Positions 7,586-34,544 of a stretch of 57,601 bases of DNA are shown here, in pieces (the stretch's first letter is position 1; every line of letters starts with the position of its first letter). A program made the position numbers and the translations under genes. The notes below the pieces were generated by a model. The model had not been told where the DNA came from. It made no database searches and was given only the letters and a program-made list of their open reading frames with translations. Source of the stretch: Rariglobus sp. (lineage in GTDB: Bacteria; Verrucomicrobiota; Verrucomicrobiia; Opitutales; Opitutaceae); assembly GCA_029266495.1 (NCBI GenBank), contig JAQSWS010000022.1:1-57601 (forward strand), given 5' to 3'.

Positions 7586-7927
7586 TCACCGGAGGATGGA
7601 GCCCGCCATGGCGTGACAGGCCTCGGCGCATTCCCGGCAGGCCTCGGCGCACCGCTGGCAGTGTTCCATCTTGTGTTTGCCGCATTCCTCGCCGCAGGCC
7701 TCGCAGACCTCGGCACAAAGCTGGCAGACCCGCTCGGCGAAGTCGGAACCGCGGGACATTTCGCGCATAGCGAATGAGCAGATGTCGGCGCAGCTTCGAT
7801 CGAGTTCGATGCAGCGCGCCATCATTTTGATGTTATCTTCGTGCAGGCAGGCAGTGGCGCAGTGCTCGCAGGCCTCCATGCATTGGTGGCAGGCTTCGAT
7901 ACACGTTTCGTATTTTTCGTGGGACAT
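7586..7927 (-). CDS. Four-helix bundle copper-binding protein (Csp-like, DUF326)
   Basis: 113 residues with many Cys-x2/3-Cys repeats along predicted helices: CIEACHQCMEACEHCATAC near the N-terminus, CIELDRSCADIC in the middle, and CQLCAEVCEACGEECGKH to CAEACRECAEAC at the end. This is the pattern of cytosolic copper storage proteins (Csp3) and DUF326 ferredoxin-like four-helix bundles, which hold many Cu(I) ions through Cys. There is no signal peptide, so it is probably cytosolic. The ATG at 7927 is preceded by an AGGAG-type ribosome binding site; longer starts read as noise. No copper exporter or regulator gene is adjacent, so a role in copper buffering is inferred from the family alone. 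Confidence 0.9.
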   Translation of the reverse strand: MSHEKYETCIEACHQCMEACEHCATACLHEDNIKMMARCIELDRSCADICSFAMREMSRGSDFAERVCQLCAEVCEACGEECGKHKMEHCQRCAEACRECAEACHAMAGSILR

Positions 7928-26772: not shown

Positions 26773-27996
26773 TCAGATGCCGGCGGTCGCGCGGCTTGCA
26801 GCCAGCGCGAGCGTGATTTGGAAGCGAGTGCCGCCGCTCTTGGGCGAATCGGCGAGGCTGATTTTTCCGTTCATGCGTTCGACTGCGCGATGGACGATCG
26901 AAAGCCCGATGCCCGTCCCCGGATATTGGTGATTGAAGCGCTCGAATAATCCGAAGATCCGGTCCCGCGCCTCGGGGGGGATGCCGATCCCATTGTCGGT
27001 GACGTAGACCGTAACGGTGCGGGTGGTCTCTCTTTCGGTGGAGATCTCGACACGCGGCCGGACGCCCGGTGCGACAAACTTGATTCCGTTGCCGATGAGA
27101 TTCTGGAAGACGACCTGCAGCATCGTCGGGTCTCCCATCACGACCGGCAGCGGAGCGGTGCTCACGACCTCGGCGTTGCGGCTGCCGATTTCCGGATTCA
27201 TGAGCGCGAGTGTCGTGCGCAAAATCTCGTCGAGGGACACGGGTTGGAGATTCACCTTCTGGCGGCCGATGGTGGCGTATTTCAGCAGGTCGGAAATCAG
27301 GTCATCCATCTTTGCGACCGAGGTCTGGATCTTTTCCAGGTGCTCCGTTGCCGCGGTTGAGAGTTCATTCGTGTGATCCTCGCGCAGGATCTGGCTGAAG
27401 CCGGAGATGCCTCGCAAAGGTGCGCGAAGATCGTGCGCGACGGTGTAGTTAAAGCGCTCCAGCTCCTGGTTGAGCTGTTCGATCTCGAGGCGGCGCTCTT
27501 CGCTCTGGCGCGCGGCGGCGACCAGTCTGAAGACCTTGGGCACGAGTGGAAACAAGGCGATCGCGGTGGCGACGGAGGCGGCGGCGGTCACCACTTTGAC
27601 GTAACCGGAAAGCCAGTAAACGGGCTCCCAGATCACCCACACCTCCATGAAATGGGTAAACCCGCACGAGACGATGAAGACGCCGAAGGCGAGAAACACC
27701 CAATGGAAGGGGATGCCTTTGCTGGCCTTGTAAACGAGGTAGGCGAGGGTCAGCGAAATGGAAACGTAGGCTGCGCCGATCAGCAGGTCGGACACGACGT
27801 GGAGCCACACCAGCTTCGGGTCGCGCAGGTAGCAGAACTCGTGGGGCATTCCGATGCGTGAAAAAACGGAGATGCCAAGTGCCTCAAAAAGGAGCACACC
27901 CAAGATGACCGCACCCAAAATGGCGACGCTCCAGCGAAACAATGGTTGCGTGAACCAGCGTGGAGGGGCGGACAAAGACGGGTTGGGGGAGATCAC
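26773..27996 (-). CDS. Histidine kinase with ethylene-receptor-like membrane domain
   Basis: 407 residues from the GTG at 27996, which overlaps the upstream receiver stop as GTGA; a TTG at 28038 would add 14 residues. There are about four membrane helices in 1-160. Helices two to four match the ETR1 binding domain: D70-x6-Y77-x2-I80-S81 (ETR1 Asp25, Tyr32, Ile35, Pro36) and GVFIVSCGFTHFMEVW with Cys111 and His115, equivalent to ETR1 Cys65 and His69 that hold Cu(I). HisKA (YTVAHDLRAPLRG, His188) and HATPase (TDNGIGIP, GTGIGLSIV) follow, without a GAF domain. It may sense ethylene or another small olefin. The Pro36 position is Ser, and no metal loading can be inferred. Confidence 0.88.
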   Translation of the reverse strand: MISPNPSLSAPPRWFTQPLFRWSVAILGAVILGVLLFEALGISVFSRIGMPHEFCYLRDPKLVWLHVVSDLLIGAAYVSISLTLAYLVYKASKGIPFHWVFLAFGVFIVSCGFTHFMEVWVIWEPVYWLSGYVKVVTAAASVATAIALFPLVPKVFRLVAAARQSEERRLEIEQLNQELERFNYTVAHDLRAPLRGISGFSQILREDHTNELSTAATEHLEKIQTSVAKMDDLISDLLKYATIGRQKVNLQPVSLDEILRTTLALMNPEIGSRNAEVVSTAPLPVVMGDPTMLQVVFQNLIGNGIKFVAPGVRPRVEISTERETTRTVTVYVTDNGIGIPPEARDRIFGLFERFNHQYPGTGIGLSIVHRAVERMNGKISLADSPKSGGTRFQITLALAASRATAGI

Positions 27997-28439
27997 GCGA
28001 GATTGAATGCGGGGGTGGTGTTGAACCCCGCCCACCAATCATGCAGAGCCTTGACCATACATTCAAGCCGGTCCGGAGCGGTGGGTTTCACCACGTAGGA
28101 ATTGGCGCCGAGCGAATAGGCGCGATTGATATCCTGAGGGAGCGCCGAGGACGAAAAAACGACCACCGGCAGTCGATAGCCCTCGGGCGTTGTCTGGCGC
28201 CAGCGCAGGACTGCAAAACCGTCTTTTTGCGGCATCTTCAAATCGAGAAGAATGACTTTGGGTGACGGGTGTTGCACGCGATCACCATAGGCGCCGCGTC
28301 CCTCGACGTAGTCGATCAATTCGTCTCCATTCGCGACGCGGACCATCTGAAAGTCGGAGCCGGTGCGACGGAGCGCGCGCTCAAGGAGCAGTGCGTCAAT
28401 CGCGTCGTCTTCGGCCACCAGCAGGATGGTTTTCGGCAT
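27993..28439 (-). CDS. Rcp1-like response regulator paired with the ethylene-receptor-like kinase
   Basis: 148 residues in a single receiver domain: LLVAEDDAIDALLLERALRR, phospho-Asp in VILLDLKMPQKDGFAVLRW, switch residue in VVFSSSALPQD and Lys in YVVKPTAPDR. There is no output domain. The gene precedes the kinase and overlaps it by four bases (GTGA), so the receiver is translated first. Rcp1-like receivers often partner phytochrome or ETR-like kinases, consistent with this pairing. A start further upstream at 28688 would add 83 unconserved residues; the ATG at 28439 begins right before the first beta strand. Confidence 0.93.
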   Translation of the reverse strand: MPKTILLVAEDDAIDALLLERALRRTGSDFQMVRVANGDELIDYVEGRGAYGDRVQHPSPKVILLDLKMPQKDGFAVLRWRQTTPEGYRLPVVVFSSSALPQDINRAYSLGANSYVVKPTAPDRLECMVKALHDWWAGFNTTPAFNLA

Positions 28440-31844: not shown

Positions 31845-34544
31845 TCAGCCCAGCATTTTGGCGATTTGAGTGCGCAGGGCCTGCAGGGAGAAGGGCTTTT
31901 GCAGAAAGCTGACGTGGTCGTCGGTTGCGAGTTCGGGGACGGCGCTTTGGTTGTAGCCGCTGGTGAGGATGACAGGGAGTTGCGGGGCGAGGCTGCGAAG
32001 CGAGCGCAGGGTTTCTTCGCCGCTCATGCGAGGCATGGTGAGGTCGAGCAGCACGAGGGAGATGCCGGCCTGGTGTTTTTTGAACAGCTCGATGCCCTCA
32101 ATTCCATCGGCGGCGATAAACGTCTTGAGTCCAAAGGAACGAAACATCTGCTCGGCCACTGCGCGCACGCCTTCCTCGTCGTCGATGAGCAACACGGTGC
32201 CGGCAAGGGGATGCGGGCGGGTTTCGAGAGGAGGGCGGGACTCGCGCTCGCTCCGCGGGGCCGAGGTGGCGGGCAGGAGCAGGGTGAACGTGGATCCGGC
32301 GCCGGCGGTGCTGGTGACCAGAAGGCTGCCTTGGTGGCCTCGCACAATGCCAAGGACGGCGGCCAGGCCGAGGCCGCGTCCGGCGAACTTGGTTGTGAAA
32401 AAAGGATCGAAGATTTTGGCGAGCGTTTCCGCGCTCATGCCATCCCCGGTGTCACGAACGCGGAGGCAGGCAAAGTCGCCCTGGCCGGGGGGCGGAGGGA
32501 GCACGGCATGGGCGAGTTGCGGGTCGTTGCGACGAAGTGCGCAGGTTTCCACCGTGATGACGCCGTCGTGGTCGCCGATCGCATCGGAGGCGTTGACGAC
32601 GAGGTTCATGATGATCTGTCGAATCTGGGTGGCGTCGACCTCGACCTCGGGCACGCCGGAGCGAAACTCGCAATGGAGGCTGGCTCGTTTGCTGATGGAA
32701 TGTTCGAGAAGCGGCATGGTGTCGCGCACGAGTTTTTCCAGGCTGGTGCGTTGAACGAGGAACCGCCCCTTTCCGGCGTAGGCGAGCATTTGCTGGCAGA
32801 GTTCGCCCGCGCGTTGGGCGCCGGTTTCGATTTGTTCGAGGTGGGGCTGCAGCGGGGACTGTCGGGGAAGGTCGAGGCGGACGATGCTCGCGTGGCCGAC
32901 AATGGTGGTGAGCAGGTTGTTGAAATCGTGGGCGATGCCTCCGGCGAGGACCCCGAGGCTTTCGAGTTTTTGCGATTCGAGGAGCTTGCGGTCGAACGCG
33001 GCTTTGTCCGCCTCGGCCTGCTTGGGGCCGGTGATGTCGATCGCTAGGCCCTCGATGAAGAGCAGGGTGCCTTCGTTGGAATAGATACCCTGGCCGCGAT
33101 CGAGCACCCATTTGACGCGGCCTTGTTTGTCGCGGAGGCGGTATTCGCTCTCGTAAGGTTCCCGGCTGCCGAGCGCGGCGCCGACGAGGGCCGCATGCCG
33201 GGTGCGGTCGTCGGGCAGGATCAAGTCGTCATAACAGGCTTTGCCCGAGGTCAGTTCGTGCGGGGTGAATCCAATGATCTCAACCGAACCGCGGCTGATG
33301 AACACGGCGGTGGGCGGGGTGTGGTTGACGTAGCGGTAAGCCATGCCCGGCATCTGGCCGAGAAGACTGTCGAGCTGGCGGCGGCTTTCGCGCAGCTCGG
33401 CCTCCACGGACTGCCGTTTGCCGATATCCGCTTCGAGGAGACCCTGGGTATGTCGCAGCTCGGCGGTGCGTTCGTTGACTTGTTGCTCGATCAATTCGGA
33501 CCGGCGGCGCACGGTGAGGAAATAGGCGCCCAGCACCAATGTGAAGACGAGGCCGCCGCCGAAGATCAGGCCGGGAGTGGCGCTGATTTGCGCCCGGGCC
33601 CACCCGCTGGCCGGAGCGTAGTGACATTTCCAAATGCGGCCTCCCATGGTCAGTTCGTTGACCCGTATGTCACCGGGGGGAAGGTCCGCGATGCTTTGCA
33701 ACGGCCGGGGGGCGGTTGCGTGGATCGAGCGCCGGCTGTAAAGGAATGGGTCGGTTGCGGCGGGCGGCGTGGCGTCCAGGATCAGCGTGTCGAGCGCATC
33801 GACGGTATATTTGACCCAGGACTGGTTCAGCATGTCGTCGATTTTGAATACAATCTGGACGTAGCCGGTCAGGTGGTCCGCGCCTTGGACGGTGTGAAAC
33901 ACCGGGCAGGCCATGATCACGCCAAAACGACCGGCTCCGGGCTCTTCCTGCACGAGGTGGATCTTGCGGGTCATCACCAGGCTGCGGGTTTTCAGGCTGC
34001 GTTTGAGATCTCCCTGGGACGGGCCGACATTGAGGTCGAATCCCAAGGCGGGTTCGTTGCCGGCCAGCGGTTCGGTATAGAGGATGGGATGGTAGACCGG
34101 GCGTTCGGCGGCGCGCACGAGTTGTCCGTCGGGGCTCCGTTCGGTGAAGGTGTAGAACGGGGCGATCTCGCGACGGGCCCAGGTTTCAATTTCATCACGA
34201 CGGGAGTGCGGGATGACGGGAACCCACTGGAGGGCCTGGATGCCCGGGTGACGGGTGCGGATGTCCCTGGCGGTGGCGGAAAACTCCGCCGTGGTGACGT
34301 CGTCCGAGCTGGCGAAGAGATTACGGAGGTTGTAAAGGCACTCCTCGTAGCCGCGGATGTTTTCGCTGATGAGGGCGTGCCGGACGGTGGCCCGGCGGAA
34401 AAATTCCTCCCGGATACGACTCTGCTCGGCGGAATGAGCAAAGCGATGCAAGGCCAGCGATGCGGCGAGGCCGGCGACAAGGATGATCACGAAGCCCAGC
34501 TGACGGCGCAGGAGATGCTTCCTGGAGGTGGCGTGGGGTTTCAT
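31845..34544 (-). CDS. CHASE-domain hybrid histidine kinase
   Basis: 899 residues. An N-terminal membrane helix (about 14-34) and another near residues 320-342 bracket a periplasmic CHASE domain, with ALQWVPVIPHSRRDEIETWA and GFDLNVGPSQGDLKRSL. A PAS domain (about 385-505) follows, then HisKA with His in LAGGIAHDFNNLLTTI and HATPase with RDTGDGMS and GRGLGLAAV. The C-terminal receiver has LLIDDEEGVRAV, phospho-Asp in LVLLDLTMPRMSGEE and Lys in FLQKPFSL. CHASE domains bind small ligands such as cytokinin-like molecules or peptides; the ligand here is unknown. No separate regulator gene adjoins it, so output is probably by phosphorelay. Confidence 0.92.
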   Translation of the reverse strand: MKPHATSRKHLLRRQLGFVIILVAGLAASLALHRFAHSAEQSRIREEFFRRATVRHALISENIRGYEECLYNLRNLFASSDDVTTAEFSATARDIRTRHPGIQALQWVPVIPHSRRDEIETWARREIAPFYTFTERSPDGQLVRAAERPVYHPILYTEPLAGNEPALGFDLNVGPSQGDLKRSLKTRSLVMTRKIHLVQEEPGAGRFGVIMACPVFHTVQGADHLTGYVQIVFKIDDMLNQSWVKYTVDALDTLILDATPPAATDPFLYSRRSIHATAPRPLQSIADLPPGDIRVNELTMGGRIWKCHYAPASGWARAQISATPGLIFGGGLVFTLVLGAYFLTVRRRSELIEQQVNERTAELRHTQGLLEADIGKRQSVEAELRESRRQLDSLLGQMPGMAYRYVNHTPPTAVFISRGSVEIIGFTPHELTSGKACYDDLILPDDRTRHAALVGAALGSREPYESEYRLRDKQGRVKWVLDRGQGIYSNEGTLLFIEGLAIDITGPKQAEADKAAFDRKLLESQKLESLGVLAGGIAHDFNNLLTTIVGHASIVRLDLPRQSPLQPHLEQIETGAQRAGELCQQMLAYAGKGRFLVQRTSLEKLVRDTMPLLEHSISKRASLHCEFRSGVPEVEVDATQIRQIIMNLVVNASDAIGDHDGVITVETCALRRNDPQLAHAVLPPPPGQGDFACLRVRDTGDGMSAETLAKIFDPFFTTKFAGRGLGLAAVLGIVRGHQGSLLVTSTAGAGSTFTLLLPATSAPRSERESRPPLETRPHPLAGTVLLIDDEEGVRAVAEQMFRSFGLKTFIAADGIEGIELFKKHQAGISLVLLDLTMPRMSGEETLRSLRSLAPQLPVILTSGYNQSAVPELATDDHVSFLQKPFSLQALRTQIAKMLG

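Follow-up and report, generated by a model that had tools for sequence, protein, structure and literature searches.

The window, by which we mean the whole 57,601-nucleotide stretch that was analysed lies on contig C109 of a 4.9 Mb genome; the nearest loci found among named genomes, at 82–90% identity over the query, are in Opitutaceae MAGs (Verrucomicrobiota). The genes of interest lie on its minus strand, in the order receiver and then sensor histidine kinase (Table 1). The GTG start of the kinase sits over the TGA stop of the receiver in a GTGA overlap, which the first-pass annotation had described and which the sequence confirms.

Table 1. Features of the receiver–kinase pair and of other genes in the window.
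Feature	Position	Strand	Basis
Single-domain receiver (Rcp1/CheY type), 148 aa	28439-27993	(-)	Translation; Pfam Response_reg E 1.8e-15
Receiver phospho-acceptor Asp66	28242-28244	(-)	
GTGA overlap, kinase GTG start over receiver TGA stop	27993-27996	(-)	Sequence, both translations
Sensor histidine kinase, 407 aa, GTG start	27996-26773	(-)	Translation, Pfam
Extra N-terminal hydrophobic stretch, residues 16-50, before the ligand domain	27847-27951	(-)	Hydropathy; model of low confidence with a helix at 18-39
ETR1_N ethylene-binding-type domain, residues 62-157, three hydrophobic stretches	27526-27813	(-)	Pfam PF25487, hydropathy
Asp70, equivalent of ETR1 Asp25, copper site	27787-27789	(-)	Alignment; role as given in PMC12643061
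Ser81, replacing ETR1 Pro36	27754-27756	(-)	Alignment
Cys111, equivalent of ETR1 Cys65, Cu(I) ligand	27664-27666	(-)	Alignment; role as given in PMC12643061
His115, equivalent of ETR1 His69, Cu(I) ligand	27652-27654	(-)	Alignment; role as given in PMC12643061
HisKA dimerisation/phospho-acceptor domain, residues 179-244, His188	27265-27462	(-)	Pfam; H188 invariant in 9/9 aligned sequences
HATPase_c, residues 288-398, N299/N303, D334-N-G336, G360-T-G362	26803-27135	(-)	Pfam, motif reading
Four DUF326 repeats (copper storage protein type), 139-aa frame	7610-7921	(-)	
Hybrid kinase	31845-34544	(-)	

The receiver is a single Pfam domain with no output domain, as is characteristic of the Rcp1 type, and its motifs are intact: EDD at 10, LLDLKMP at 64, which contains the phospho-acceptor, and VKP at 117. 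The assignment to the Rcp1 type had been made from the letters, and the solved structures bear it out by placing the protein near phytochrome response regulators, with RphyB, RcpB (1k66), RcpA (1k68) and two Rcp1 entries (one being 1i3c) among the nine best matches; PDB 4zyl also appears among its matches. No NCBIfam family was over its cut-off among the best 25 of the 68 that matched the receiver, nor among the best 25 of the 82 that matched the kinase.

Three Pfam families are found in the kinase at E up to 0.001, namely ETR1_N, HisKA and HATPase_c. The ETR1_N match scores 125 bits (E 1.4e-36) against a curated cut-off of 27, which places the protein in that family. The profile is specific at E up to 0.001, with no match in any of 14 control genomes and the window gene as the sole match in its own genome. 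The kinase genuinely belongs to the ethylene-binding-domain family, and its genome is related to Opitutaceae. The thought that an unrelated membrane sensor resembles ETR1 by chance is contradicted by the strength of this match and by the empty controls; nothing was found in its favour, and we give it practically no weight. The first-pass annotation had also read the ligand domain as joined directly to the kinase domains, and the Pfam scan agrees: no GAF domain is found in the kinase at E up to 0.001, so it is not of the plant receptor type. The catalytic part is that of an orthodox histidine kinase, with the HisKA histidine and the N, G1, F and G2 boxes (H188, N299, N303, D334, G336, G338, F351, G360, G362 and G364 all intact).

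The membrane part has four hydrophobic spans by hydropathy (16–50, 62–90, 91–123 and 129–163), the first of which precedes the three that belong to ETR1_N. Structure models of the full kinase (9 alignment rows, mean pLDDT 62.9, sensor part mostly below 50) and of the sensor alone (8 rows, mean pLDDT 57.6, pTM 0.31) are both of low confidence; they do not show the pocket and are too poor for a judgement on the copper site. The whole kinase is matched by 55 sequences of solved structures, none of them in the sensor part, the best stretches starting at residue 161 at the earliest. A profile of 25 ETR1_N domains likewise matched no solved chain at E up to 1, and phage records gave no match to the domain at E up to 1e-3.

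The current picture of how ETR1 holds copper and ethylene is built on models and mutants (PMC6586836). Seven residues are given as needed for ethylene binding (PMC11819568, PMC6682694); I35, P36 and I62 are named among the essential residues beside C65 and H69 (PMC6586836), and PMC12643061 locates the copper site at Asp25, Cys65 and His69. In the window kinase, D70, Y77, I80, S81, I108, C111 and H115 were read directly from the translation and align with D25, Y32, I35, P36, I62, C65 and H69 of an ETR1 N-terminus entered by hand. Every residue position in the first-pass annotation, including Cys111-x3-His115 and the serine in place of the proline, proved to be as claimed. Six of the seven residues are present, among them all three proposed Cu(I) ligands (Asp70, Cys111 and His115), and the seventh, the equivalent of Pro36, is Ser81. 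The kinase also keeps the counterparts of Ser98 and Pro110, to which an essential part in ETR1 signal transmission is ascribed, and of Thr94, which is named with them (PMC6586836). The ETR-like part of the original description as an ethylene receptor therefore stands; the step from there to a receptor for ethylene is weaker than claimed, since the seven-residue rule used for predicting binding includes the missing Pro36; by that rule the window protein would be doubtful as an ethylene binder. In tomato ETR3, the change of this proline to leucine (Never-ripe) yields a receptor unable to bind ethylene (PMC6727826).

Relatives of the domain were collected with the ETR1_N profile (E up to 0.001) in three samples: relatives (8 of 37 genomes matched), the phylum (24 of 387, 23 over the cut-off) and the family (36 of 252, 33 over the cut-off). 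The window's own domain served as query (E up to 1e-8) for a class sample, with matches in 43 of 384 genomes; the search sets overlap. Nine contig loci, 10 of 19 matched plasmid records and more places in those records supplied further domains, and cyanobacteria and Deinococcota are represented by the plasmid records only. Removing L017 (cut by a contig end), L036 (degenerate) and L074 (off-consensus, in a 116-aa frame) from the 83 distinct domains read left 80 for comparison, which are a part of the known members. Two weak ETR1_N matches, L008 and L037, fell below the limits and lie outside the 83. L018 was dropped as a relative; it matches only query residues 126–154, and its genome has no ETR1_N match.

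The maximum-likelihood tree has 81 rows, these 80 domains and the hand-entered ETR1 sequence. Fourteen domains with Ser at position 36, the window's included, and two with Ala fall together on one branch with support 100/98, in a tree whose bootstrap is not fully settled and in which L063 is a long row of less sure placement. The branch stays when column 36 is left out (SH-aLRT 98 by a quick method). Pro36 is found in 62 of the 64 domains outside the branch, the two others being L097 (Ala) and L038 (Ser, also without Asp25), and in none of the 16 within it. The Ser36 set alone is not one side of a branch in either tree. In the close branch of the window kinase, position 36 is fixed as Ser. Most members of the wider branch come from Opitutaceae and other Verrucomicrobiota; single plasmid records add Kovacikia minuta, a cyanobacterium (L061/L073), and Deinococcus aquaticus (L063).

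The other six binding residues are fixed in all 16 branch members; the equivalents of Ser98 and Pro110 are kept in all 16 as well, and that of Thr94 in 15. Within the branch, 23 of 91 columns are invariant (one of these is a gap in every row), and they include all six binding residues. The probability of this by chance is 1.5e-4 if columns are independent, which is a rough guide, the positions being near-fixed in the other 64 domains too. Such conservation favours a functional copper site over decay. It bears on the suggestion that ETR1-type ligand binding has been lost, leaving a kinase with constitutive activity or one that follows the redox or membrane state. That suggestion draws on the replacement of one of seven required residues, at the very position altered in the Never-ripe receptor. 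However, relaxed selection would hardly preserve six residues throughout a branch that includes domains 66% (L073) and 54% (L089) identical to the window's, and the degenerate L036, which lies outside the branch and is without the six, illustrates what decay can look like. We consider loss of binding quite improbable.

The same fixed residues can be read in another way, namely that the Pro36-less branch keeps the copper site and senses some other ligand held by Cu(I), for example a small alkene or alkyne, CO or copper itself. A nearly universal residue is gone while the equivalents of Asp25, Cys65 and His69 are fixed, and it is gone from a well-supported branch whose support survives omission of column 36. 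Against this, there is no positive sign of any such ligand, and the remaining six residues, including the equivalents of Ile35 and Ile62, are as in ethylene binders. This reading seems unlikely to us. A broader proposal, that loss of the proline gave the branch, in three bacterial phyla, either a changed gas specificity or an ethylene affinity that is markedly different, with the copper site kept, we hold as a tentative possibility.

Some features of the wider family were recorded along the way. A coupling between positions 36 and 57 (helix 2) was considered, with Ala57 in 15 of the 16 branch members and 2 of the 64 others; it was dropped, as Ala57 also occurs together with Pro36 in two proteins and the pattern could stem from a single change on the tree. 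Copper-site residues are changed in several other ETR1_N relatives, with Tyr for His69 in L028 and Asn for Asp25 in L038, L059 and L101; L036 has lost the equivalents of Cys65 and His69 and more. Long ETR1_N proteins with Pro36 also occur in Opitutaceae, where L002 and L009/L096 are both in genome G016, and in the window's own genus (L003, in G006). The 1.2 Mb plasmid pA of Kovacikia minuta has three ETR1_N matches: L061, L070 and L074, of which one is Pro36-less, one is ordinary and one is the off-consensus domain in the 116-aa frame. ETR1_N-type kinases are also carried by plasmids typed as conjugative, L065 on Novosphingobium sp. ES2-1 p2, where the kinase is near a Cas9 gene, and L067 in Pseudanabaena sp. 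PCC 7367. Ethylene-type receptors may move among bacteria on plasmids.

A paired receiver is found in only part of the branch. An Rcp1-type receiver lies just upstream of, and overlaps, seven of the nine Opitutaceae genes of the branch; in the other two, L013 and L109 (gene L007), no receiver was found within the flanks available. In Verrucomicrobiota outside Opitutaceae, a receiver is adjacent in two of six loci, tail-to-tail in each (L015 and L017, the latter being outside the 16), and none was found in the available flanks of L014, L016, L113 (gene L082) and L089, which for L089 amount to 3.3 kb. As for the plasmid members, L063 is without an adjacent receiver and L061 has only a weak receiver match 0.8 kb upstream. 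The outer neighbours are matched in few of the 17 loci, the DUF4142 gene in three and the epimerase gene in two (the window's own included). The SDR gene is matched in none, where the window's own short locus stops before it and several flanks are short. Since these outer neighbours travel less often with the pair, kinase plus receiver is the unit in Opitutaceae.

The closest precedent is AzoEtr1 of Azospirillum brasilense, which binds ethylene and whose gene is overlapped by that of a single-domain receiver (PMC11819568). AzoEtr1/AzoRR-etr1 shares with the window pair an ETR-type domain on a histidine kinase and an overlapping receiver without an output domain; it differs in having a PAS domain, all seven residues and the receiver downstream rather than upstream. 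A plasmid copy from A. brasilense (L060) is 47% identical to the window's domain and has Pro36. The short kinase L065 on the Novosphingobium plasmid also has an annotated overlapping response regulator, but Pro36 is present, the receiver is downstream and the window receiver does not match it at the threshold used. SynEtr1 of Synechocystis and GeiEtr1/2 of Geitlerinema likewise carry a bacterial ethylene-binding domain on a histidine kinase, although SynEtr1 and GeiEtr2 have PAS and GAF parts, and all seven residues are present in both Geitlerinema proteins (PMC6682694).

The likeness to Arabidopsis ETR1 and the plant receptors consists of six of the seven binding residues, the copper ligands and the Ser98 and Pro110 equivalents, with about 42% identity over the domain between the window kinase and the hand-entered ETR1 sequence. 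The extra N-terminal hydrophobic stretch is shared with four-helix plant receptors. Unlike plant receptors, the window kinase has no GAF domain, has Ser for Pro36 and has its receiver as a separate protein.

Bacterial ethylene-binding domains have been described for proteobacteria and cyanobacteria (PMC7700396). A limited literature search found, among the papers listed, no report of ethylene receptors for Verrucomicrobiota or Deinococcota, which is no proof of absence. The first-pass annotation had singled out the arrangement itself as deserving attention in such an organism. The observation was right, but the weight given to it does not hold up in view of the AzoEtr1 overlap, the Novosphingobium plasmid pair and the frequency of ETR1_N in the phylum sample; an ETR-type kinase with a paired receiver is an already known kind.

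The copper storage-type protein that had been reported some 20 kb away is real, with its four DUF326 repeats about 19 kb from the receptor pair, and its gene is the only one of its kind found in the genome. We also considered a link to the receptor, for which nothing speaks but the distance. The genome has a match over the cut-off for a copper P-type ATPase. A search of it at E up to 0.001 gave no free-standing HMA copper chaperone; the one HMA match is partial and lies in a frame of 1082 aa. A large hybrid kinase 3.4 kb from the receptor pair combines CHASE, PAS, HisKA (just under cut-off), HATPase and receiver domains, CHASE being the domain type of plant cytokinin receptors (PMC7700396).

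Taking these together, the explanation that we favour, with moderate confidence, is an ETR1-type two-component gas sensor, predicted to be a sensor kinase for ethylene that depends on copper and has an altered affinity. We favour it because ETR1_N is far over its cut-off, six binding residues are fixed in the branch and the kinase and receiver motifs are intact, and because the receiver overlaps most of the Opitutaceae branch genes, AzoEtr1 provides a precedent and a copper P-type ATPase is present in the genome. It is weakened by the essential role of Pro36 in ETR1 and the binding-dead Pro36Leu of tomato ETR3, and also because the branch is paired with a receiver only in part and no free-standing HMA chaperone was found at E up to 0.001.

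In such a sensor, the extra hydrophobic helix and the three-helix ligand domain would form the membrane part, Cu(I) would be held by Asp70, Cys111 and His115, and ethylene would bind at the copper. The binding signal would pass through helix 3 (Ser141 and Pro153) and the linker to His188 and lower its autophosphorylation. By analogy with AzoEtr1 and SynEtr1 (PMC11819568), ethylene would be an inverse agonist. We infer that phosphate would go from His188 to Asp66 of the receiver, presumably co-expressed, which would act by protein contact because it is without an output domain.

With Ser for Pro36, binding is probably kept, at a shifted affinity or with shifted kinetics. The tomato case is not equivalent: there, leucine was imposed on a proline background, and here serine is fixed in a branch that could adjust over time. 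Either the background of this branch tolerates Ser or Ala, perhaps at a changed affinity, or its sensors respond to another cue or to none at all. Our literature search found no assayed member of the Pro36-less branch.

Ser81 is worth more pursuit than the arrangement of the genes, as it marks a branch that does not conform to the accepted rule for binding. That rule derives from mutants of one plant protein, and a natural branch that lives without Pro36 and retains the remaining six offers a ready-made experiment on it. The window kinase places ethylene-type sensor kinases in Verrucomicrobiota.
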